From: Basidiobolus meristosporus CBS 931.73
Taxonomy: Eukaryota > Basidiobolomycota > Basidiobolomycetes > Basidiobolales > Basidiobolaceae
Direction of reading: 5' to 3'
NCBI GenBank assembly: GCA_002104905.1
Contig: MCFE01000501.1
Span: 1-64,000, forward strand
Length of the DNA stretch: 64,000 nucleotides
Both the position numbers and the translations under genes were made by a program. Below the pieces are notes generated by a model. That model did no database searches, was not told the origin of the DNA, and saw nothing but the letters and a program-made list of their open reading frames with translations. Positions within the stretch are counted from its first letter, which is position 1; each line of letters starts with the position of its first letter. Below are positions 1,451-64,000 of this stretch, piece by piece.

Positions 1451-2254
1451 TGTGGTAGGGTAAACATACCTCCCACAGACAAGTTTATTCATATAGTCAT
1501 TATGATATACTTATCCATATTTTATCTTATCAGTATTATCCCATTCTTCTTTTGCCCATATTATCAGTATTAATCCCATATGATGTTTACCCTGATTAGT
1601 TATTAGCATTAGTTATCCCAGATGTTATTCAGCTTTGTGATCAGTAGATGTATCTATATAAGGCATGTATCCGCGTCAGTACCCGTGACACATGACCTAG
1701 GTCTGTGTTACCATCCCTACCATTTCAATACCATACATGGTATTTCTATGTTGCACAGGTTTCAGACTACTGATTCCTGATTGGTTGAGAGTGCTGTGCC
1801 TTTTAGAACCTTCCAGGACATTCTTGGCATATTTTTAGCTCATAGTGATGTCATCAAGAATTCCACTGATACCTAGAATCTTCTAGAACCTTGTCATTAG
1901 TAATCTCTTGGCAATCAGGAAAAGTATTTAAGGGAAAGCAATCCCTCATCAATAAATCATCCCTTCTATCAGTAACACTTCTCCCTTATTGATTAGCAGT
2001 TGATCACTGCACCTGCCTTCAACAGTACATCTCAGACCTGCCATCAAGGAGCTTTTCAAGGTAGTGCACAAGACACACAGAGGCCTTTGGAGACACTTGG
2101 AGCACCTAGGAAGCTAGAGAAGCAGGAGCTTTTACCATAGTGACATATTGACAAAGACACCAGCAGTTTAGACACAGAGGTTATCGCACCCATCAGACAC
2201 CTCACACACCTTGAGTTGTGTAGCTTCTCCCAGGAGTACCTCTACACCACCACA
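1451..2254 (+). repeat. Solo LTR, family LTR-B (804 bp)
   Basis: The repeat begins TGTGGTAGGG and ends CCACCACA, so its ends are inverted TGTGG/CCACA. The flanking pol coding continues on the far side, so this is an insertion into the old Gypsy element. The 4 bases before it are CCGG and the 4 after are CCAG, which fits a 4-bp target duplication with one G-to-A change. It has TATA-like motifs (ctatataagg near 1,655). A - strand fragment of the same LTR lies at 26,300-26,447. No internal region remains, so it arose by LTR-LTR recombination. Confidence 0.8.
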
Positions 2255-2740
2255 CCAGTTGACTAGCACATTGGGCCCTCCAACTAGAAGAATAAAGCTT
2301 CAAATAATTCATTGCAATGGCAAGAAACAACAGGATGCTGACTTCCTCAGTTGCTATCCTGTTTGCCAAGTATGCATCAGCAATGACTACAAGGACATAA
2401 TCTGCTTTAAAAGAAGAGGGAAGTACCCCAAACACATTGTTACAAACAAGCAGAAGAGAGACTTTCAAAGAAAATGGTGTCAGTACAAAGCACAAGAAAA
2501 CCAATTATGGTTCCTCCAAGGACAGCTCAGAGCTGAGGTACCCTCAGCAACTGCCTTCAAAGAAATAATACAAGAAAGACATATGTCAGTAGGACACGCT
2601 AATCCCCTGATGACGTATAAGATGTTAAGAAAGACATTTTACTGAAGAAAAATAATGACTAACATCATGAATATGTTACACAGATGTTCCACCTGCAAAA
2701 GATCAACCAGAGATAGAAGATAGAGACAACCACACCAATA
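2255..2740 (+). mobile_element. Old Gypsy element, second pol segment: end of RNase H and integrase zinc finger
   Basis: Reading resumes with the end of RNase H and the linker (IHCNGKKQQDADFLS near 2,307-2,350). A decayed HHCC integrase zinc-binding region follows: HMSVGHANPLMTYKMLRKTF at 2,580-2,640, then CSTCK near 2,685. There is a stop at 2,643. The segment ends at the CCGC target duplication of Gyp-A. Confidence 0.8.
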
Positions 2741-2744
2741 CCGC

Positions 2745-3809
2745 TGTAGCGGGGTGACAGTGACACCCACTGACAGATGTGCTCATTCCCTTATTTTCTA
2801 CTTCCCTACATCTCTACTACACTTATTTTAGTTTTGTCCCATTTGTCTTACCCAATCAGTACTATCCCATAAGCCGGTTGACTATCACACCTGCTTACCT
2901 TATTGCATAAGTTACTCCTCACTTTGTGTAAGATTACTAGCTATAAGTGCTTCTATATAAGGCAAGTACCCACGCCAGTACCTGTGACACATGACCAACC
3001 TGTGTTACCATCATTTCCATACCATATATGGTATCCACATGTTACACAGGCTTCAGAATACTGATTCCTGATTGGTTGGATGTGCTGTGCCTCTTAGAAC
3101 CTTCCGGCACCTACTTAGAACATTCTTAGGTCATTCTGATGTCATTAAGATTTCTATTGATATCCAGAACCTTCTGGAACACCATGATTAGTAACCACTT
3201 AGCCAGTAAGAAAAGTATATAAGGGAGGCTATCCCTCAACAATAAATCATCATCCCTTTTATCAATATATCAACTTGTTGATTAGTGTGATCACTGCTAC
3301 CTGCTGCTACCTGAACTTCCAACCCCAGACCACATGACACTCCCAGGAAACCATGCTGACAGCCAACTGACCTTGGAGGCGCTACTTGTGAGGAATACTC
3401 AGAGTAGGTATCTTTTGTTATATTTGATTCTTTCCCAAGGTTGTTCTTGTACAGGCAAAGATACTTTTCTGTCTTTGTAACTATTGACCACAGCTACATT
3501 CTTATCAAGTCCCTGCTGGTGGAGTTTACAGTTGTTTTGACTTTGGAAGCTATAGTACATTGTCATCTCAAAGGATGCTGAACCCAGCACATACTTTTGT
3601 TAAGATGCCAACTAAGTTGGGGATTGTAGCTCAATAGTTTTCCCTTGACAAGCTTGTGGCTTTATTCCCCTTCACATTAGATTAGAGACAGAACCCAAGT
3701 ATTCCTAGCAGGCTTTTGCCAGAGGTTATTGCACCCAGTGAACACCCCACACACAAAACACTTGAGAAGTGTTGGATGTATCTCTCCCTTAGACTTATAC
3801 ACCACCACA
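2745..3809 (+). repeat. Gyp-A 5' LTR (LTR-A)
   Basis: It starts TGTAGCGGGG and ends CCACCACA. TATA-like motifs (tatataagg) lie near 2,953 and 3,216. The same repeat recurs complete at 8,832-9,896 and 22,079-23,137, and truncated on - at 17,212-17,914. Confidence 0.95.
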
Positions 3810-3811
3810 TA

Positions 3812-3830
3812 TTTGGCACCCAACATGGGG
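3812..3830 (+). other. Probable primer binding site of Gyp-A
   Basis: The stretch TTTGGCACCCAACATGGGG lies 2 nt past the end of the 5' LTR, where a tRNA-primed minus-strand site is expected. The TGGCACC...GGGG form is typical of Gypsy elements. I could not assign the tRNA species. Confidence 0.6.
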
Positions 3831-3949
3831 GGTTCATACAAGCTCCCTAGGACCCAACAAGATTTACCTGAAGATTTGAGCCGTTATCCACTTATTGAAA
3901 AGAGACTACCAATATTATCAAGACTACAACACCAACCTACCTGCCCAAA

Positions 3950-4574
3950 ATGAATTCAATGCCATTACCACTCTCACATGGAGCCCCACAGTTTGATGGA
4001 AAGAATGTGGAAAGCTTCATATTCAAATGGGAGAAGCTCTGCAAGATGTGCAGCCTAATTGAAAAAGAAATGGCTGAAGACTTCCCCTACTACTGCACCA
4101 ATGATATTACCACTAAGCTTCTCAGACAAGGAGACATTCTCACTGACTGGGCCTTAATGAAGACCTACCTACAGACCAAGTATGGTAGACCCCAGATATA
4201 CTATGGAATTGAAGACCTCAGACACTTTGGAAGAACTGGACTTTCCAAGCTACCACTTTCAACAATATGAAGATATGGCCAAGCTACTCCTAGAGTCCCA
4301 GGCTATAACTGAGTTTACCATGACACTTTACCTTGCACAAGGGCTTCCCCAGGACTTGGCAAGTAAAGTTGACTTACATGCAGCCAAGGATGACAAGTCT
4401 GGCACTCCTTGCTTTGCAGAGATGAAACATGTTCTCCTAGAGGCAAAGCAAACTTCTACCTTCATGAGACTCCTGACATCTAATCTGCCAGACCAGTCAA
4501 CCAAGGAGCCAAGGAGTGCTGCTGCTGACAATCAAACCTACACTTCCGACAGAATTGACCAACTTGCTGAATAG
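3950..4574 (+). pseudogene. Gyp-A gag (frameshifted)
   Basis: The region opens with MNSMPLPLSHGAPQFDG and continues (NVESFIFKWEKLC), the kind of retrotransposon capsid start seen in fungal Gypsy gags. The frame ending at 4,270 overlaps a second frame (4,182-4,574), so one frameshift near 4,200-4,260 breaks the gene, followed by a stop at 4,572. Further gag-like sequence runs on in pieces to about 5,018. No zinc knuckle was seen. It was the structural protein of the particle and is inactive in this copy. Confidence 0.75.
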
Positions 4575-29430: not shown

Positions 29431-30750
29431 TGTGTGGGGAACGTGGGCATGGTGGTGGTGAGTTTAAATAGCTTTAAGCCTCGCATGGGGGCCATCTTTG
29501 GAATAGGCATGTTTACACGGTGGGACAGCTCGAATTCACGCCACAGGAATCCGGTGGACGTGTGAAAGTAACATATGCAGGTTGCTTGTCTTACCCCGAG
29601 GGCGAGTGGAGATTACCTACTGAAGTGGGCATCAAGAGGACGACGGATAAGTGGTGAGGATTGGATCTGAGCGAGGCCATTTCGGGAAATGATGAGATTG
29701 AGCAACGTAGGGCCGTGGAATCGAGCCGATTTTGGAAGCTTCCTTGACCGTGACGTGCGGGAAATTCCAGGTCATCCGGGCATGTCCATCAGTACCAAAG
29801 AATTATTCGGGAAATGATCGACCCTCCGTGACCGAAAATCCCGTTCCCCGGTCCCACGGCCCATCACAGCTGCCAGGGAAATGGATGCTCGGTGGTGGGA
29901 CGGTACAGATTTGGTATTTCTCTACCTTTCCTTCTCCCGTTTCTGAAATGTCGCTGCTGCCTCGCTTCGCACGTAGATCCTAGTCGCTGCAAAAGGATTT
30001 CAGGAAGATCATTCAATATCCGGAATTAAGAGGGGATCAATCTGGAGCCTGTATGTGAAGTGGGCGGGTGTTGCGGCGTCCACCACTTGATGGTGGAACT
30101 GTAGGTGTAGATATTGCTTTGTACACACCAGCAGGCCCATCCATGCTTTTCGGTTAACCCGTCTACACACAGCCGCCTCTTGCTGCGCGAGACGTACTGA
30201 AACAACCCCATCTCATGAGCCTGTAAGAACCAGATTGGTTGTTTGAGAGTGGCCCTCTTGCCAATGGGCAACCCTGGCGGAGATTCATGTTGAGTGCGGC
30301 AACTAAACATTGGAAATGCAGGGTCGCATATTAGCTCCGGTATGAGAGGTGCCATGACCAGCCCGACAAGGCATACAACCGCACTGATGGTCCATTGCCT
30401 CCAAAGATCGAGGTGCACTTTGCGAAAGATGCAGTCAGATGGATAGACTTGATTCTAGAGTATGCAAGCGGTTCCCTTACATTCGGCAAACCCAACCCGG
30501 ATCAACTTTAGTGGTTCGTCATCTGATGCCATATAGCGAGCTACTCACTATGAAACGTCTCCGTCAGATGTGTAGGGACTCTGTACGCCCTGTTCATTCG
30601 CGTGTTCCGATAGGGCTTAGACTCGGCTACTCTTATGCAGTGCGGTTTGAATGAACGATCCCTACTCAAGATCTCAGCTACCTTCGCATCAATTGATGTG
30701 TCGGTTGGGTGACTTTGAACCGAAACAATACCAGAGGGAGCAGAGAATCC
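29431..30750. other. Intergenic region between divergent secreted-protein genes
   Basis: The amidase (-) and the Kunitz gene (+) diverge from here. The open frame 30,026-30,418 on - has no recognised domain and no convincing start context. No RNA gene was seen. Confidence 0.5.
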
Positions 30751-30753
30751 CGC

Positions 30754-30760
30754 TATATAA
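30754..30760 (+). promoter_or_regulatory. TATA box of the Kunitz gene
   Basis: TATATAA lies 48 nt upstream of the start codon at 30,808, with a short leader. It is the clearest core promoter in the gene region and suggests strong or inducible expression. Confidence 0.65.
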
Positions 30761-30807
30761 GGATCGTAGGATGTTCCACTAAAATCACCACCGTAGAGGC
30801 ATCCGCC

Positions 30808-31764
30808 ATGCACAAGTTTGCTCCTCCCGCCATCTTAGCACTCTCGGTATTATGTGGGTCACTCAGTGCGTATGATTTGCCCCAAGTGTGCTACCGCCAG
30901 GGCGACCCTGGGATGTGCAAGGCAGCTATTCCTAGATGGCACTACAATCCAGCCACCGAAAAGTGTGAGGAGTTCACCTATGGTGGCTGTGGTGGGTACG
31001 TTCCATTTAAGAGCCTGGAGAAATGTCAAACTACGTGCAAGGTGGAATGGGAGCCTGAGCTAGGACCCGAGCCCAAACATGACAAGCCCAAGGTCTGTTA
31101 TCGCAAAGGAGAAACTGGGCCATGTAGAGCAGCGATGCCAGCATGGCAGTTCAACATGAAGACCGGAAAATGTGAAAAGTTTACCTATGGTGGATGTGAT
31201 GGCTTTGTCCCCTTCAGGTCGGTGAGCGATTGTCAAAAGACGTGTGCAGGTGAGGAGTCCAAGCCAGAACCTATGCCGGAACCTGAGCCAGAGCCCAAGC
31301 ATGACAAGCCCAAGGTCTGCTATCGCAAAGGAGAAACTGGGCCATGTAGAGCAGCAATCCCAGCATGGCAGTTCAACATGAAGACCGGAAAATGTGAAAA
31401 GTTCACCTATGGTGGATGTGATGGCTTTGTCCCCTTCAGGTCGGTGAGCGATTGTCAAAAGACGTGTGCAGGTGAGGAGTCCAAGCCAGAACCTATGCCG
31501 GAACCTGAGCCAGAGCCCAAGCATGACAAGCCCAAGGTCTGCTATCGCAAAGGAGAAACTGGGCCATGCAGGGCAGCAATGCCGGCTTGGCAGTTCAACA
31601 TGAAGACCGGAAAATGTGAAAAGTTCACCTATGGTGGATGCAAAGGCTTTGTTCCCTTCAGATCGGTAAATGATTGCCAAAAGACGTGTGGAGATGAAGA
31701 TCCCGTCCCTGTGCCTGTACCAGTACCCGTGCCGGAGCCTGAACCCGAATACGAATCCTATTAG
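30808..31764 (+). CDS. Secreted four-domain Kunitz (BPTI-type) protease inhibitor
   Basis: This single-exon gene encodes 318 residues. A signal peptide (MHKFAPPAILALSVLCGSLS) precedes four Kunitz domains at about residues 28-77, 97-146, 171-220 and 245-294. Each keeps six cysteines with BPTI spacing and the FTYGGC core. The P1 residue after the second Cys is Lys in domain 1 (GMCKAA) and Arg in domains 2-4 (GPCRAA), predicting inhibition of trypsin-like proteases. Domains 2-4 are nearly identical and arose by recent duplication. Linkers are Pro-Glu rich (PEPMPEPEPEP), and the tail is a PV/PE repeat. Kunitz domains are mainly animal; a fungal one is unusual. It may block proteases of hosts, prey or competitors (inference). 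The start follows the TATA box and gives a good signal peptide. Confidence 0.93.
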   Translation: MHKFAPPAILALSVLCGSLSAYDLPQVCYRQGDPGMCKAAIPRWHYNPATEKCEEFTYGGCGGYVPFKSLEKCQTTCKVEWEPELGPEPKHDKPKVCYRKGETGPCRAAMPAWQFNMKTGKCEKFTYGGCDGFVPFRSVSDCQKTCAGEESKPEPMPEPEPEPKHDKPKVCYRKGETGPCRAAIPAWQFNMKTGKCEKFTYGGCDGFVPFRSVSDCQKTCAGEESKPEPMPEPEPEPKHDKPKVCYRKGETGPCRAAMPAWQFNMKTGKCEKFTYGGCKGFVPFRSVNDCQKTCGDEDPVPVPVPVPVPEPEPEYESY

Positions 31765-56410: not shown

Positions 56411-58102
56411 CTGATGTTAGGGTCGCCTTCCGCCAAACCTTCAACGCTGGTAGGCTCTTGAAAATAGCCAACGACCTCATTGTCCATGAAAAGACGCCAT
56501 GGAGAACATCCCTATCTTAATGAATATAGCGAGTATCCTTTGGCACTCACTCAAGTATATATCGCTGTCTGTGGTTTTGCCCATCAGCAATCATTATCAT
56601 CCCATTTGTACAAAGCATGCTCATTCCCGTTACTGTTCGCTGGCCTGTCAATAGCGGTGATCCCACTCGGACCAATATTAAGTTTGGAGAATTGCCCTGG
56701 CGACGGTAGTTTAGCACTTGCCACATCAAGTGCGCATTGAATTTTGGTGCTTAGCAGCAATGAATCCAGGATTTAAGAGATTTTCAGAGCAGCAGGATAG
56801 ACCTAAACCACACTGTTCTAAAGCCAGCACCAACGTGTTCGAATCGTTGATGAGATGGTGCGATTTTATGCTCTTGTCTGCACTCCAAATGTATTCGTAC
56901 GTATGTATTTTCAAGTGGCGCATATGCAAACTCTTGCTTAACTTTGGCTTTTTAATTTAGAATGTGATAGGCTTGAAACAGGAAAGAAGTGCAACCTGGT
57001 AAGAATTTCCAATACACATTATCAGAATACCATACGGTATTCACAGAAATCTATCGAGCTTGCAATTGCCATTTTGAGTATAACCCTCCGTGTTACGTGT
57101 GAATCCGCCTCTTCTGGTGCGGAATCCTCAGCAGAAATCTCGAAATTGGATATTTCTTGGATTTTTTGATAGATTTATACCTTTTCAATACGGAGTTGTG
57201 ATGGTATTCCACCCCAGATAGAGTCATAAATTTCTTATTACTCATACCAAAAGCTGGTGGCTAGACTTCATGCTTTGCCCAGGAATAGTGTATACAACGG
57301 CCTATATAGTGCATGTAGTATCGCGCTTGGATATGGACCTTAATCCTCATTTTTGAATTGATGTAGGTTCAATCCGTGTTGGGTTTTTCAGATCCACATG
57401 TACTATTCTGATGGGTTGTATCAAAAGCTTCTGATAGAGTTGAATGAGTATTTACTTACAATAAAGTTCTTTATGCTTCCCGATCCTAACAAGTTTCCAT
57501 AAACGCAGTTGTTCTGATATCTTGCAACTGAATTAAAAATTTGAAACATTAACATAGTTCCCTCTATGAACAATTTTTTCGAACTAGATATCTTCCGAAA
57601 ACACTCTAGCCATGCTGCAATCCAATATAACTTTCAGAGTATGATTGCTGATCATTTGGTGCTGATATTTTCGGGGAGTCGCCAAGGACATCAAATGAAT
57701 GCTGAAGAATGAACATTATGTGAGTTTGTGTAGTATTGGAAAATCTATGTGGTATTCAGTTGTACATTAGTTAAGGCAGTCAAAGCTTGGCTATTTTTTG
57801 GAATGTTGCGGACGTATGATATGAATACTCTACTATAAAGGGAGACTATGTACATTTTAGGGCTCAGTAGTACAAGTGGGCTCACAATGTTTAAGACGCT
57901 GTAGATTCGAAATGAACAAAGAAAAGCGAAGGAATAACTTTTTTGGCAGAGTAACAATTAAAATACAATACACTTTCAACTCAAATTGTTGAAAGCTAAA
58001 GCAGGGTGCTTTTTGTGGTGACAAATCCAATTGTATTACATAAAAGCATAGAAATGTCAATATCAAGGGTAAAGTTTCAACATATTCCCAAGTGGTTGAA
58101 TT
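56411..58102. other. AT-rich distal region; no gene recognised
   Basis: No open frame here (for example 56,480-56,740 on +) carries a motif. AT content rises toward the Copia remnant, consistent with subtelomeric position. Confidence 0.5.
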
Positions 58103-58600
58103 AGTTGTAAAAATTTGGAGTTCCACCTAAATATTCACATAAATTAGTCACTTAGATCAATACCAACATATCTTAGAGAATACTGACCAAATTCCTTGTT
58201 GGGATTTACTTAGAATATTTTCACCAAAATACCAGGTACCCAGAATATGAAAATTAGATATGTTGTCCAAGCAGCCCCAAACTTTGCACACATGTTCTTG
58301 GGACCTTCCCAAACCTATTCTACATGTTTGTCATGCCTTGATCATGTAAAAGTATAAATACTACTCTTACATTCAGTAAATCATTAAGTAAAAGCCGCAT
58401 AATCTACTTGTTCACCCAATCACTTCCTATATCTCCAAGACTCTTACAGCAGGTTATGAGCCCTGAGCTGTCACTCCCTGCAATGTCTACTACTGCTATT
58501 ACTGGAATTTTTCCCTCTGCTGAAAAGTTGAATGGATCTAACTAACAAGTGTGGAAAGTAGTGATGAAGATGTGGCTACAAGAAAGAGGCCTTTGGGATA
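58103..58600 (+). mobile_element. Copia family 1: LTR, primer site and gag start, cut off by telomere repeat
   Basis: The LTR is 58,103-58,451 (349 bp; first base altered, ends ACAGCA). GGTTATGAGCCCTG follows, complementary to the anticodon stem-loop of initiator tRNA-Met. This fits priming by a half-tRNA as in Drosophila copia. Gag opens at the ATG inside this site (MSPELSLPAMSTTAITGIF) and has one stop in KLNGSN-stop, where the family has NY. It runs to ...GLWDI at 58,600, where the family sequence would go on but TTAGGG begins. Confidence 0.9.
58452..58465 (+). other. Copia primer binding site matching the initiator tRNA-Met anticodon arm
   Basis: GGTTATGAGCCCTG directly follows the LTR. 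Its complement is CAGGGCTCATAACC, the conserved anticodon arm of eukaryotic initiator tRNA-Met, known from established tRNA sequences. The same site in related copies reads GTTATGAG (about 12,917-12,924 on -) and GGTTATGTGCCCC (about 13,439-13,451 on -). Confidence 0.75.
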
Positions 58601-58612
58601 TTAGGGCTAGGG
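58601..58612 (+). repeat. Telomere repeat at the Copia/array junction
   Basis: TTAGGGCTAGGG, one perfect and one variant unit, directly joins truncated Copia gag to the first LINE 3' end. Confidence 0.85.
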
Positions 58613-59354
58613 GGAGACAGTCACCAACAGGGGAAATCTTTATTTCTGCTGAAACAAAGAAGCCAGTGCTATTGTTGTGGCATTGATCCAAGAGTGTGTA
58701 GCTGAGGGGAATTTGTAGGTAAGTTAATCAAGAGAAATGATGGTTCTTCAGTACTCAAGACACTGTTCAGCAGGAAGGGGGTAGCAAGTGGGATAAGGAT
58801 GATTTGTGAGCAACATTGATCATGGGAGTATGATAGGGATTGATATTCATAATGAAGGGAGTGTGTTGTTTCAGATATTGCTGCCAAAGGTCTGTCAAGT
58901 GCTCAGGCAGGCCAGCTTGGGTTTTTCTGACTGCAGAATATAATGAGCAAACTTCTTGACATCAGGATCTCCAAGTATTGTTCTCCAGCAGGAGCCAGGT
59001 GTAGTGTGGTGTGTTCTCATCCAGGCCTTGAGCAGTGGGTTGTTGCAGTGGTGAAGTCTGTGATATATTCCGGTTCTATGGTAGAGAAGTCTGATTTTAT
59101 AGGGCATAAAGCCAAAAGCACCAAGAATTGCATGTCTGTAGTGGCATTCAGGCAGATGAGGCACCAAGGAGGTAATACACCAGACTGCAAACTTGTCAAG
59201 CTTAGTGCAGTCTCTAGAAGTTAGTGAGAGAAGTGGTAAGCCAAATTCCAGGACAGGGAAGACAAACTGCTTGAGTAGAAGGAGACAGCTGGGAGCTGAA
59301 GTTGTAGGAGGAGAAACAGCCAGTAGTTTGTGGAGTGCCTGTCTTGCCAGGAGG
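58613..59354 (-). mobile_element. Telomeric LINE copy 1, 5'-truncated (742 bp)
   Basis: On - it encodes the C-terminal part of the LINE reverse transcriptase protein (LARQALHKLLAV, FPVLEFGLPLLSLTSRDCTK, HLPECHYRHAILGAFGFMP), then the 3' UTR with AATAAAGATTTC and the terminal hairpin. Its hairpin has one mismatch (CCCC for CACC). It is truncated inside the coding region at 59,354, directly against TTAGGG. Unlike copy 2, it has a Tyr codon after GFMP. Confidence 0.93.
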
Positions 59355-59360
59355 TTAGGG
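59355..59360 (+). repeat. Telomere repeat unit
   Basis: A single TTAGGG between LINE copy 1 and element X. Confidence 0.85.
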
Positions 59361-59977
59361 GGGATGAAAATCACCAAAGGGTGAAATCTTTATTAAATAA
59401 TAAATAAAGAAGCCAAGTTTGAATATGGGAATCTGGAATGAAGAAGGCCTATAAGATAAACTTGGACTTTGCTGTTTCCCAAATATCCTCAATATCAAAG
59501 TCTAGAGAAGAATGTAGCAAAACTGCTTATTCACTGCAATACTTCTTGAGGAAGTTTGTGACTTGAAGTGAAGGAGAGTTTTTCAATAAGCTGGTAAATC
59601 TTTTGAGGAGTTCTTTTTCAAGAGAGAATGGTACAAAGAGTGGAATGTCCAAATGATGTCTAAATATATGCTCTGAGAGCTCCCAATCCAGCATATTTTT
59701 GACTTCTTCTGTAAAATCTTCAACAATATCCTTATCAAGAATAACTTGCAGGAGATCCCTGGCAATGTACTGAATGTTATTTATCTTAGGCATATGAATA
59801 CCTAGGTCCTTGAGGTAGTTTCTCTGTTCTGATATTGGGAGATAGCCTGCATTTCTGAAATTGCAAACAGCCCAATTGGCAGTGGGAGGAGTATCAGGGC
59901 TGACAGGGAGTCTGCTTCTGGCTCTAGAGTGCACTGGCTTAGGAGACTGTCTTGATGGAAGGGCAGCTTGTTTTGGG
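59361..59977 (-). mobile_element. Telomeric element X, 5'-truncated, unknown family (617 bp)
   Basis: It shares the 3' terminus (AATAAAGATTTCACCC then TTGGTGA) with the LINE and SINE, but its coding is different. An open frame at 59,527-59,934 (up to 135 codons) contains YLKDLGIHMPKINNIQYIAR and DIVEDFTEEVKNMLDWELSE, with no domain I recognise. It may be the C-terminus of another non-LTR element's protein. Confidence 0.75.
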
Positions 59978-59983
59978 TTAGGG
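59978..59983 (+). repeat. Telomere repeat unit
   Basis: A single TTAGGG between element X and a 46-bp stub. Confidence 0.8.
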
Positions 59984-60029
59984 GAGGGAAAGTTACCAAG
60001 GTAGGTGAAATCTTTATTTGATTTCAGAC
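59984..60029 (-). mobile_element. 46-bp 3' stub of a telomeric element
   Basis: Only the 3' terminus is present: AATAAAGATTTCACCTACCT then TTGGTAAC on -, flanked on both sides by TTAGGG. It is an extreme 5' truncation. Confidence 0.75.
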
Positions 60030-60041
60030 TTAGGGTTAGGG
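60030..60041 (+). repeat. Telomere repeat, two units
   Basis: TTAGGGTTAGGG precedes the 3' end of LINE copy 2. Confidence 0.9.
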
Positions 60042-62838
60042 GGGGAGACAGTCACCAACAGGTGAAATCTTTATTTCAGTTGAAACAAAGAAGCCAGCGC
60101 TACTGTTGTAGCTTTGATACAAGAGTGTGTAGCTGAGGGGAATTTGTAGGTAAGTTAATAAGAAGTGATGATAGTTCTTCAGTGCTCAGGACACTGTTCA
60201 GTGGGAAGGGGGGTAGCAAGAGAGGTAAGAATGACTTGTGAACAACATTAATGAGGGGAATGTGATAAGGATTGATATTCATCATAAAGGGAGTGTGCTG
60301 CTGCAGATATTGCTGCCAAAGGTCTGTCAAGTACTTCAGGTAGGCCAGCTTGGGTTTTTCTGACTGCAGAATATAGTGAGCAAACTTCTTGACTTCAGGA
60401 TCTCCAAGTATAGTTCTCCAGCAGGAGTCAGGTGTAGTGTGGTGTGTTCTCTTCCAGGCCTTAATCAGTGGGTTGTTGCAGTTGTGAAGTCTGAGGTATA
60501 ATCTGGTTCTAAGGTAGAGAAGTCTGATCTTTTAAGGCATAAACCCAAAAGCACCAAGAATAGCATGTCTGTAGGGGCATTCAGGCAAATGAGGCACCAA
60601 GGAGGTAATGCACCATACTGCAAACTTGTCAAGCTTAGTGCAGTCTCTAGAAGTAAGAGAGAGAAGTGGTAAGCCAAATTCCAGGACAGGGAAGACAAAC
60701 TGCTTGAGTAGAAGGAGGCAGCTGGGAGCTGAAGTTGTAGGAGGAGTAACAGCCAGTAGCTTGTGGAGTGCCTGTCTTGCCAGGATAATTCTCTTCCTCA
60801 GGTGTGCTCCAGAGTCTAGTCCAGTAGGAAGGAAAGGAAAGCCATGATATGTAGCAGAAACCTGAGCAGGTAGAGTGGAGTTCTCCAAGTTGATGGGAGA
60901 GCCCAAAGGTACTGTCTTTGCAATGGAAAGCTGGAGATTATTCTTCTGCAGATACTGGTGGATGGTCTGGGAGTCATGTTGCACATTGGAGGAGGATATT
61001 CTGATGTCATCAGCAAAGAGAGTAACCAGGCAGTCAGCTGAGAATCTTGGGAAATCATTCAGGAAGATGGCAAACAGTATAGGACCAAGCACAGAGCCTT
61101 GAACTACTCCATTAGGAACTGAGAACACAGCTGATTGCTCACTTGGGTGCAGAATTCTTGCTTGTGGATCCAGAAACAGAGATCTGACAAGGAGGGTAAG
61201 AGAGGTACTGGAGAAGCATTGCAACTTGGACCAAAGCAGATTTCTGTCAACTGAATCAAAGGCCTTAGTAATATCAAACAGAACAGAGGGATACTTGCAC
61301 TGGAGAGAGTGATCTTGGCTAAGTATGACTGCATATTCCAAGGAGAGGCCAGGAACAAAGCCAAACTGTGCAGGATGAAACTTGAGGGAGTCAGAGTAGA
61401 GCTCCTGAGCAAGCAGAAGCTCAAACACCTTTCTGCAGGTGGGCAGCAGAGATATTGGCCTGTAGGAGCTAGGATCCAGGTGCTTTCCTTTACCCTTGTA
61501 CAGTGGCAGAACATTTGCAAAGGACCATTCCTCAGGAGTAGAAAGCTGGGCTGAGCATTGCTGAAACAGTGGAAGCAGAAGTGCAGACATGGCCTTGGTA
61601 CTAGTCTTCAGAAGCTCATAGGAGATTGTGTCCACACCTGGAGCAGTAGAGTTGGGAAGCCTCTTGAGCACATTATGGATTCTCCTTTGATCAAGTGCAA
61701 GTGGGATGGGCAGAGTCTTCAAGTCAGGATGAAAGCCAGGAGTTGAATACTGCTTTGTAGAGAAGAAGATGTTAGCCAGCTGTTCTGTTGAAGGTAACTT
61801 CCTGGAAGAGGGCCTCATTGCCCTGTAGAGTCTTGATACTGTTCTTGTTATAGAGTTGGAAGATTGCAGAGGCAAAGAACTCATAATATGATCCCAGAGC
61901 TGAGTATGCAGAGTGTGGTGAATTGCCTTGGAGTGGTGTATTGCTGTCAGGAGGAGTTTCTCTGTTTTTGGGTTAGGGAAACTCAGGTAGCTTTGTTGCA
62001 GGGCTGAAACAATGGATTCCCATTTTCTTGAGGTAACAGCAGTAGTCTTGCATGGCAGTGAGAGGGAGGCAGACACCAGAATCAGATGCTTCACAAAGAG
62101 CCAGGCATAGTTGAGATCATCTGGCAGAGAAAGTAGCAAACTGGCAAGCTTCAAGTAGTTCCCAAAGTCTTTCTTCTGATTCTTGGTAGCTTTGTGGGTG
62201 AGCACAGTAAGTTTTGGCAGATTCTTCTTCACAACTGGTTGCATAGAAAGGGACCAGGCTGGGTGGTCAGAGGCTCTCAAGGATCCTAGCTCAGCTCCAG
62301 AGAATTGCTTGACTTCATTCACAAAGTAGAGGGTAGCAGCAGAAGGGCAGATCCAGTCAACACATCTTTTCTCAGATTGAGCACCTAGTGCTAGCAGATG
62401 GCTTTCTCTCAGGAAGTTCAGTAGGAATGTAGCTCTTGGCTTCATTCTTGCAGTCAGAGTAGTCTTGTTCTCAGGATGGGGAATGTTGAGATCTCCAAGC
62501 AAGATAATAGGTGTTGATATAGATTGCTGGTATTTCTGGACTTTCTGGCATATAACTTGCCTTCCTGAAGGGCAAGACTTGGAGGCAGATAGCAGAGCAC
62601 CAGACTGATAGTTGGCAACTGGAGAGCAGCACAGTAAGGGGAGTAAAGAGGAACACAGAGCTGAGGAGTATTGATGGTAGAAGAGATGAAGCAGATAGAG
62701 GAGGTATTCTTTGTTCTAGGAGTAGAAAAGCAATATAGATTAGTCAAAAGTATAGAGTGTAGCTGGACATCAATCAAACACAGGAGGGAAAATCTTGAAA
62801 GAAGTCTCTCTAGAGTTGGTCTTGATGGCTGTATGCTG
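60042..62838 (-). mobile_element. Telomeric LINE copy 2: APE-RT non-LTR retrotransposon, 2.8 kb, 5'-truncated
   Basis: This is the most complete copy. It holds the C-terminal half of an apurinic-type endonuclease, the whole reverse transcriptase, and a 3' UTR ending in AATAAAGATTTCACC and a GGTGA hairpin arm before CCCTAA. The 5' end is cut at 62,838, against TTAGGG. The endonuclease frame above about 62,640 appears shifted. I counted no CpG in 60,901-61,380. Confidence 0.95.
60100..62502 (-). CDS. LINE endonuclease (partial) and reverse transcriptase, one premature stop
   Basis: From the N-terminus, LLGDLNIPHPE and LRASDHPAWSL are the GDLN and SDH motifs of the APE endonuclease. The reverse transcriptase shows APGVDTISYELL, VLPLYKGKGKHLDPSSYRPI, SVLFDITKAFDSVDRNLL (motif A), VPNGVVQGSVLGPILFAIFL (motif B) and VTLFADDIRISS (motif C, FADD). 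The 656-codon open frame ends at 60,532, where a TAT to TAA change stands (copy 1 has Tyr). After that stop the same frame stays open to 60,100. The protein would nick or use a DNA end and copy the element RNA onto it. The start lies beyond the truncation. Confidence 0.93.
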
Positions 62839-62844
62839 TTAGGG
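62839..62844 (+). repeat. Telomere repeat unit
   Basis: A single TTAGGG between LINE copy 2 and SINE copy 1. Confidence 0.85.
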
Positions 62845-63364
62845 GGAGGAAAGTCACCAAGTGGTGAAATCTTTATTTACTTATGACAAGTATCTAAAGA
62901 AGCCAAGTTAATCTGAAGTAATTCCTAGAAAGCTAGGTCTGAGAGATATCTTCCTGGTAAGCCAGGTCTGAGAGTTGAGAATCTGAGTGGTACTATATTT
63001 CCTAGTTAGCTAGGTCTGAGAGTGGTTTCCTGGAAAGCCAGGCCTGAGAAGTGAGAATCTGAATATATCTGAGCTAAGTTATACTGGTTTGCGGTAGCTG
63101 AATTGTGGCCGGAATGGCCAGTAGACTGGGGGAACTGAGATGTATTTCTGGGCGATCACTGGCCAAATTTACTAGGCAAATCTGGCCATTAGCATTTCAA
63201 GGATTTCAGCCAATCAGAGCCTTTACTTTGCCCGATGGTTGATCAAGCCATCTCCCAATGAGCACACATCAATTTATTAATCAAATTTTGCTGGATCCAG
63301 GATTTGAACCCACAACCCTGGGTATGGAAGGGTTAGGGATAACCACAAGGCTAAGTGTTCTTGG
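62845..63364 (-). mobile_element. Telomeric tRNA-headed SINE, full length (520 bp)
   Basis: Read on -, it starts next to CCCTAA at 63,364 with a tRNA-like head: an A-box-like TAGCCTTGTGG, then a B box GGTTCAAATCC (about 63,300-63,310), the RNA polymerase III internal promoter. The body (about 63,050-63,290) is unique. Four 14-nt hairpins follow, then a tail with AATAAAGATTTCACC and TTGGTGAC shared with the LINE. It encodes no protein. Sharing the LINE tail is how SINEs borrow LINE machinery. Confidence 0.8.
62924..63042 (-). repeat. Four small hairpins in the SINE body
   Basis: Stems of 5 bp with 4-nt loops lie at 62,924-62,937 (CCTAG/CTAGG), 62,953-62,966 (CCTGG/CCAGG), 63,001-63,014 (CCTAG/CTAGG) and 63,029-63,042 (CCTGG/CCAGG). 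Each is followed on + by TCTGAGA or CCTGAGA. The fourth stem pair changes between A-T and G-C with both sides altered together. Confidence 0.8.
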
Positions 63365-63382
63365 TTAGGGTTAGGGTTAGGG
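63365..63382 (+). repeat. Telomere repeat, three units
   Basis: Three perfect TTAGGG units between the full-length SINE and the next SINE. This is the longest tract in the window. Confidence 0.95.
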
Positions 63383-63632
63383 GGAGGAAAGTCACCAAGT
63401 GGTGAAATCTTTATTTACTTATGACAAGTATCTAAAGAAGCCAAGTTAATCTGAAGTTATTCCTAGAAAGCTAGGTCTGAGAGATATCTTCCTGGTAAGC
63501 CAGGTCTGAGAGTTGAGAAGCTGAGTGGTACTATATTTCCTAGTTAGCTAGGTCTGGGAGAGGTTTCCTGGAAAGCCAGGCCTGAGAAGTGAGAATCTGA
63601 ATATATCTGAGCTAAGTTATACTGGTTTGCGG
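63383..63632 (-). mobile_element. Telomeric SINE copy 2, 5'-truncated (250 bp)
   Basis: It is nearly identical to 62,845-63,095 of copy 1, including all four hairpins. It is cut off (actggtttgcgg) at 63,632 directly against TTAGGG, so the tRNA head is missing. Confidence 0.92.
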
Positions 63633-63638
63633 TTAGGG
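63633..63638 (+). repeat. Telomere repeat unit
   Basis: A single TTAGGG before LINE copy 3. Confidence 0.85.
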
Positions 63639-64000
63639 GGGGAGACAGTCACCAACAGGTGAAATCTTTATTTTAGTTGAAACAAAGAAGCCAGCGCTAC
63701 TGTTGTAGCTTTGATACAAGAGTGTGTAGCTGAGGGGAATTTGTAGGTAAGTTAATAAGAAGTGATGATAGTTCTTCAGTGCTCAAGACACTGTTCAGTG
63801 GGAAGGGGGGTAGCAAGAGAGGTAAGAATGACTTGTGAACAACATTAATGAGGGGAATGTGATAAGGATTGATATTCATCATAAAGGGAGTGTGCTGCTG
63901 CAGATATTGCTGCCAAAGGTCTGTCAAGTACTTCAGGTAGGCCAGCTTGGGTTTTTCTGACTGCAGAATATAGTGAGCAAACTTCTTGACTTCAGGATCT
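63639..64000 (-). mobile_element. Telomeric LINE copy 3, runs off the window
   Basis: It is nearly identical to the 3' end of copy 2 (60,042-60,404), including the C-terminal frame 63,697-63,927 (DLWQQYLQQHTPFMMNINPY, QLHTLVSKLQQ) and the terminal hairpin. Its 5' end lies beyond 64,000. Confidence 0.93.

Follow-up and report, generated by a model that had tools for sequence, protein, structure and literature searches.

Retroelement arrays at chromosome ends of Basidiobolus meristosporus suggest a telomere-dedicated non-LTR retrotransposon system with a common 3' tail

We analysed a 64,000-nucleotide stretch (hereafter the window) of the fungus Basidiobolus meristosporus CBS 931.73, positions 1 to 64,000 of contig MCFE01000501.1 (here C760; 65,913 bp in an assembly of 89,006,234 bp and 1311 contigs), which from position 58,601 onwards consists of retroelements joined to one another by telomere repeats. 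Judged from the arrays collected across the genome, these elements very probably form a system of non-long-terminal-repeat (non-LTR) retrotransposons dedicated to telomeres. Segmenting the window array and 35 fetched loci revealed that the genome holds at least five tail families: two long interspersed nuclear elements (LINE A and LINE E), a short interspersed nuclear element (SINE B), and families C and D, whose only coding part is a frame resembling the first open reading frame (ORF1) of the LINEs. An earlier reading made from the window's letters (the sequence-only reading) had proposed three kinds of element, and although its LINE and SINE are both present, its count was too low.

Searching the genome for the tails yielded 653 exact LINE A tails (610+43), 414 exact SINE B tails (390+24), 247 family C tails with at most one mismatch (218+29) and 83 family D tails with at most two (74+9), 80 of the 83 differing at two bases. 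Many internal copies lacking TTAGGG, the pattern that the sequence-only reading had singled out as contrary to its claim, were not what this search returned, since the copies cluster by the contig end that they face. Among the first 100 of the 653 A tails, all 40 on contigs longer than 100 kb lie within 18.3 kb of that end (about 10% would be expected within 20 kb); the remaining 60 come from shorter contigs, with a median of 17 kb, for which distance to the end carries little information, as it does for the B, C and D tails on short contigs. On contigs longer than 40 kb, the tails within ~20 kb of the faced end were 49 of 49 for B (among the first 100 of 414; 12% expected), 82 of 82 for C (among the first 100 of 247; 15% expected) and 68 of 68 for D (of all 83; 22% expected), with one further D tail ~21 kb from the end of C1086, a contig of ~37 kb. 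Contig numbers follow size rank sorted lexicographically, an order in which the 27 known sizes are monotonic; the other sizes used for these distances were interpolated, coarsely for some short contigs. LINE copies scored by themselves gave a similar picture, with 66 of the best 67 of 1090 candidates lying within ~10 kb of the faced contig end.

Within the window, all seven 3' ends named by the sequence-only reading were recovered within ~10 bases. Each belongs to a minus-strand element, points inward and has one to three TTAGGG units beside it, the innermost being degenerate (TTAGGGCTAGGG). The orientation of the array is uniform, with 5' ends towards the tip. Its proposed location at a chromosome end was also borne out, as the contig reaches a telomere tract 1.9 kb past the window: beyond position 64,000 the third LINE copy continues and is followed by a LINE piece of 70 bp, a ~10-nt SINE stub and a terminal tract of 192 bp (~32 TTAGGG units). 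The tail families present in the window are A, B and D together with a 54-bp C-type remnant, whose best BLAST match is an E tail (87%) and whose tail sequence is that of C. The innermost LINE A copy appears to be an older one given its divergence from the reference copy, and the frame at 60532-62502 within the second LINE A copy matches the reverse transcriptase (RT) family PF00078 with 87.2 bits. Allowing at most one mismatch, TTAGGGTTAGGG occurs eight times in the window against 0.26 expected, a number reached in none of 100 shuffles; five of these matches are array junctions, one (61967) falls in LINE coding sequence and two (34731 and 55022) are outside the array. An Rfam search of window positions 57000-64000 gave no match.

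Table 1. Elements and telomeric junctions of the array, in window coordinates.
Feature	Positions	Strand	Details
Degenerate telomeric junction	58601..58612	+	TTAGGGCTAGGG; array base
LINE A, 5'-truncated	58610..59352	-	A positions 3817-4561; 91.5% identity to reference copy
Junction	59353..59358	+	one telomere unit
Family D element, 5'-truncated	59359..59972	-	ORF1-like frame 59530-59982 extends into junction
C-type 3' tail	59975..60028	-	54-bp remnant
Junction	60029..60041	+	TTAGGGTTAGGG
LINE A, 5'-truncated	60040..62840	-	A positions 1761-4562
SINE B, complete	62838..63366	-	529 bp; common 3' tail
Telomere units	63365..63382	+	three TTAGGG units
SINE B, 5'-truncated	63376..63633	-	B positions 272-529
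Junction	63634..63639	+	one telomere unit
LINE A copy	63637..64000	-	extends past window to contig position 65615

The same type of junction recurs across the genome. A strict TTAGGG lies within 7 nt of 516 of the 653 exact A tails, TAGG lies within 16 nt of 75 of 78 comparable A tails, and [TC]TAG followed by a G-run was read at 70 of 80 3' junctions in the fetched loci, counted without L021 and L038, which repeat other loci, and with C and E tails pooled. The length of the G-run has a mode that differs by family (6-7 for A, 5-6 for B and 4-5 for C and E together), as would be expected if the element itself encodes a C-run. Inner tracts are short, with 47 of 70 consisting of one unit, 16 of two, three of three and four of more, up to a maximum of seven, while the 11 terminal tracts measured span 156-240 bp. 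Two stubs retain a 3' end only. In line with telomere healing, 21 of 36 truncated 5' ends overlap the repeat in register by at least 2 nt, whereas simulated truncation of LINE A gave such an overlap in 19%.

What the families have in common is the tail: one tail from each of the five was folded, and all gave a pair of hairpins with a C-run behind them, with fold z-scores of -3.8 (A), -2.5 (B), -4.1 (C), -2.7 (D) and -3.7 (E). Both hairpins are whole in seven of eight folded tails, and the first differs between families yet stays paired (G-U versus A-U, and a last pair of C-G versus G-C, compared by eye). The common hairpins rest on single-sequence folds, as MAFFT fails to register the first hairpin across families. 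SINE B thus has its tail in common with its partner LINE, as in LINE-dependent SINEs of the UnaL2/UnaSINE type, in which the SINE carries the tail of the LINE; the likeness extends to a common hairpin tail, and the difference is that here both partners are limited to chromosome ends.

To characterize the autonomous candidate, we used a LINE A reference copy of 4562 bp in C713, which has a 5' leader of ~225 bp with a CAACCCTAACCCTAA motif, an ORF1 of 502 amino acids with a Cys pattern at its N-terminus, and an ORF2 of 922 amino acids in the same frame, separated by one UGA. This UGA is followed by CUA in all 24 copies with a complete match to the ORF1-ORF2 border (25 anchors). According to extracts of PMC4207609, readthrough at UGA CU(A) has been tested in Ustilago and in human cells, where the context is leaky. 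From its reading frames, LINE A would therefore probably yield an ORF1-UGA-ORF2 readthrough protein besides free ORF1. ORF2 carries an RT domain (PF00078, 86.4 bits) and the motifs GDLN, SDH, FADD and a Tyr. Among PDB sequences the RT matches human L1 ORF2p (~1e-12) and a group II intron RT (7.5e-6), and no entry bearing the name R2 appears up to E 0.1. The RT domain, the 5' truncations and the lack of terminal repeats in the reference copy together mark a non-LTR element. Motifs of a restriction-like endonuclease (RLE; CCHC-like plus RHD and R/KPD) were not found by regular expression in the ORF2 of L050, and its Pfam search gave no RLE family; a single search of viral contigs for relatives of LINE A ORF2 was negative.

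The open frames of LINE A are signs of recent activity. An open frame of exactly 922 amino acids is present in 46 of the best 67 copies, one of which (on C96) has an internal TAA. Across 19 of 30 loci with a full 922-codon ORF2, a set of intact frames with decayed copies left out, pairwise identity is 98.4-99.9% (mean 99.3%) and, for the 171 non-independent pairs, the ratio of nonsynonymous to synonymous substitution rates (dN/dS) is 0.166. Exact matches to the complete LINE 5' end number 22, all forward, at 19 places because three are tandem pairs, and a full-length copy with a variant 5' end (L022) stands outside these 22; the exact complete SINE 5' end matches 173 times. The tandem pairs, on the contig ends C373, C442 and C516, place the first ~100 bp of LINE A 101-102 bp apart, and L040 holds another form of this 5' duplication, a pattern that recalls promoter monomers.

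LINE E is a diverged relative of LINE A, their RT regions being 56% identical over 333 amino acids. Behind their ORF1-like frame, the C and D elements have ~130-160 nt without ORF2 and then the common tail; the D layout is based on the one window copy, in which this interval is ~160 nt. The C frame is 35% identical to LINE A ORF1 over 163 amino acids, and the D and C frames are 45% identical over 129. In the head of SINE B, GGTTCAAATCC at SINE position 57 matches the B-box consensus; an A-box was not found in SINE B by regular expression, and ARAGORN found no tRNA in the window. The SINE body also holds four CCTRGCTNNCYAGG hairpin motifs at sense positions 325-445 (read in the complete window copy, 62838-63366), whose arms change together (CCTAG/CTAGG, CCTGG/CCAGG).

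As a mechanism, these features fit target-primed reverse transcription that starts at the 3' end of the telomeric G strand. LINE A and LINE E would make a protein combining an apurinic/apyrimidinic endonuclease (APE) with an RT, and the RT would recognise the common tail by its two hairpins and terminal C-run. This run would pair with the G strand at GGG-3', and cDNA synthesis from the G-strand 3' OH would proceed outwards, which would leave the 3' end inward and the 5' end towards the tip. Synthesis may frequently abort and so produce 5' truncations, down to stubs of ~10 nt; telomerase would then add TTAGGG again to the new end, to which the next element could attach. SINE B and the ORF1-only C and D, with the same tail, would be copied in trans. 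Telomerase is a likely resealer given two neighbouring matches above cut-off to exons of the TERT RNA-binding domain on C880. Slightly less likely than not is a further reading, in which the LINE protein would act as a telomere-end polymerase: as telomerase does, it would extend a free TTAGGG-3' without a nick, by way of the C-run at the RNA 3' end, and a guild of SINE and ORF1-only parasites copied at chromosome ends only would have evolved around it.

A number of observations weigh against parts of this account. At the junctions, 137 of the 653 exact A tails lack a strict TTAGGG within 7 nt, TAGG is absent within 16 nt in 3 of the 78 comparable tails, and 10 of the 80 junctions are not clean TTAG, among them degenerate forms and some without a clear repeat. 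Recurrent sequences without the common tail also stand between telomere units, one at L037:4288-4968 and L040:3855-4848 and a second at L032:4371-4968 and L047:301-1000 and 3949-4406. The exceptional LINE copy by position, on C726, belongs to an array at 56822-59430, 57 kb from the faced end; there the LINE tail abuts the 5' end of a SINE, which points to an embedded array in opposite orientation that is a relic inside the chromosome or else a misjoin. A mismatch breaks the second hairpin in the tail of the old LINE A copy (3' end at 58,613), and one of the two TERT matches contains a TAG. As for the protein, the sequence-only reading had called it APE-RT, of which the RT half stands, whereas the APE half is suggested by a weak N-terminal match to Exo_endo_phos_2 (PF14529; 20.9 bits, E 3.3e-4) that falls below the cut-off of 27.4. 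By the usual APE motif positions, the catalytic Glu is seemingly an Asp; a PDB search with the endonuclease piece, taken to E 10, brought up no structure of an APE, and its AlphaFold model (predicted local distance difference test score 39) is uninformative and too poor as a search query.

Possible, though on balance doubtful, is a route that starts with an APE nick in the G strand of a long duplex telomere tract, as SART and TRAS are held to do, so that insertion would be internal with the outer telomere kept; short inner tracts would arise afterwards, through breakage of longer interstitial ones. The APE-like match in ORF2 fits such a route, and so does the account of Magnaporthe in extracts of PMC7367193, where an interstitial tract is considered prone to breakage from three units upwards and stable at two, 63 of our 70 inner tracts having one or two units. 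Uniform insertion into tracts of 156-240 bp, however, predicts that single units should be rare, yet they make up 47 of the 70; later trimming could explain this, although inner tracts as short as these speak rather for elements being added to ends almost bare of repeats. It is unlikely that the arrays spread mainly through recombination or break-induced replication between ends, with retrotransposition rare or over. Such processes are documented in MoTeR arrays (extracts of PMC7367193) and contigs here have subtelomeric sequence in common, but the 5' truncation points vary between copies, the families occur in many orders, and frames are intact with low dN/dS. That the junctions are assembly artefacts of collapsed repeats is very improbable, even though repeats at contig ends are error-prone and telomere 18-mers are biased to one orientation (8002 to 103), given that junctions of one type were matched hundreds of times across the genome and that the 80 read in loci show G-runs specific to each family and spacers of a single unit.

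A chromodomain Gypsy element is also present in the arrays (L014:3425-5775, L031:474-850 and L049:1-857), its outer part cut off by telomere repeats; its border with the array element is visible in the first two of these loci and not in L049. We considered and rejected the capture of a Gypsy transcript by template switching in L014, as the borders with a C element in L014 and with a SINE in L031 lie at the same LTR terminus, TGTTGTATCC, which instead suggests integration as DNA and later truncation.

To the sequence-only reading, an array that mixes an APE-RT LINE, a SINE and a third element seemed a new case. MoTeR, FoTeR and CNL1 are fungal analogues, and what appears to differ here, from the predicted proteins, is the protein type. 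In extracts of PMC7367193, the MoTeR arrays of Magnaporthe are head-to-tail, their elements spaced by anything from half a TTAGGG unit to more than 20 and with the 5' end to the tip, show 5' truncation and healing with in-frame seeds, have a non-autonomous partner (MoTeR2) and contain insertions of the Gypsy-type MAGGY. FoTeR of Fusarium oxysporum has the orientation of MoTeR and 3-7 units at its 3' end (PMC12857005, in part), and CNL1 of Cryptococcus forms subtelomeric arrays flanked by telomere repeats (PMC12810828, in part). The array architecture, telomere restriction and 5' end towards the tip are thus features that our elements have in common with these fungal ones. In the same extracts all three belong to the RLE or R2-superfamily kind, MoTeR1 and FoTeR carrying RT and restriction enzyme-like (REL) domains in one ORF (PMC7367193, PMC12857005, PMC12810828), whereas here two ORFs are separated by a UGA, the N-terminal match is APE-like and the RLE motif is lacking. 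MoTeR2 has both ends in common with MoTeR1 (PMC7367193, in part), whereas here, to judge from the loci read, the SINE and the ORF1-only elements have nothing but the 3' tail in common with the LINE. Searches of open-licence PMC full text, which leaves most subscription journals outside it, listed no paper on Basidiobolus telomeric non-LTR elements or on a telomere-restricted SINE.

Outside fungi, SART1 and TRAS1 of Bombyx are likewise LINEs in telomerase-type telomere repeats; they carry an APE endonuclease, to which the weak APE-like match here would correspond, and a poly(A) 3' end, and a SART1 study reportedly names a UAAUG stop-start in its title. Our elements differ from them in having a C-run and no poly(A), a UGA CUA in frame and a SINE partner. 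SART1 ORF2 translation depends on ORF1, according to extracts of PMC2881922. HeT-A, TART and TAHRE of Drosophila resemble our elements in being added at chromosome ends, with C and D as comparable forms (PMC5009743, in part); unlike in the HeT-A/TART host, which is without telomerase, long TTAGGG tracts of 156-240 bp and TERT-like exons remain here.

Fungal telomere LINEs in the literature searched are of the RLE/R2 kind, so an APE-type element outside that clade would mean an independent origin of telomere targeting in fungi. A tail common to five families, including a SINE and two ORF1-only families, would offer a natural experiment on the template features that an RT needs at a telomere end, and has a bearing on the relation of telomerase to non-LTR RTs. 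Should the end-polymerase reading hold, LINE and SINE would be a pair confined to telomeres, and the host, with its telomerase retained, would provide a natural model for retrotransposition that is end-primed and endonuclease-independent.

Two minor observations concern the assembly and the rest of the window. Genome-wide, the 8002 forward and 103 reverse telomere 18-mers suggest that most telomeric contigs have their telomere on the right, and at ~30 18-mers per tract they give a rough estimate of ~260 telomeric ends. At window positions 30709-31764, a frame with four matches to Kunitz/BPTI domains, which are uncommon in fungi, overlaps a 222-bp tandem repeat of 2.8 copies.

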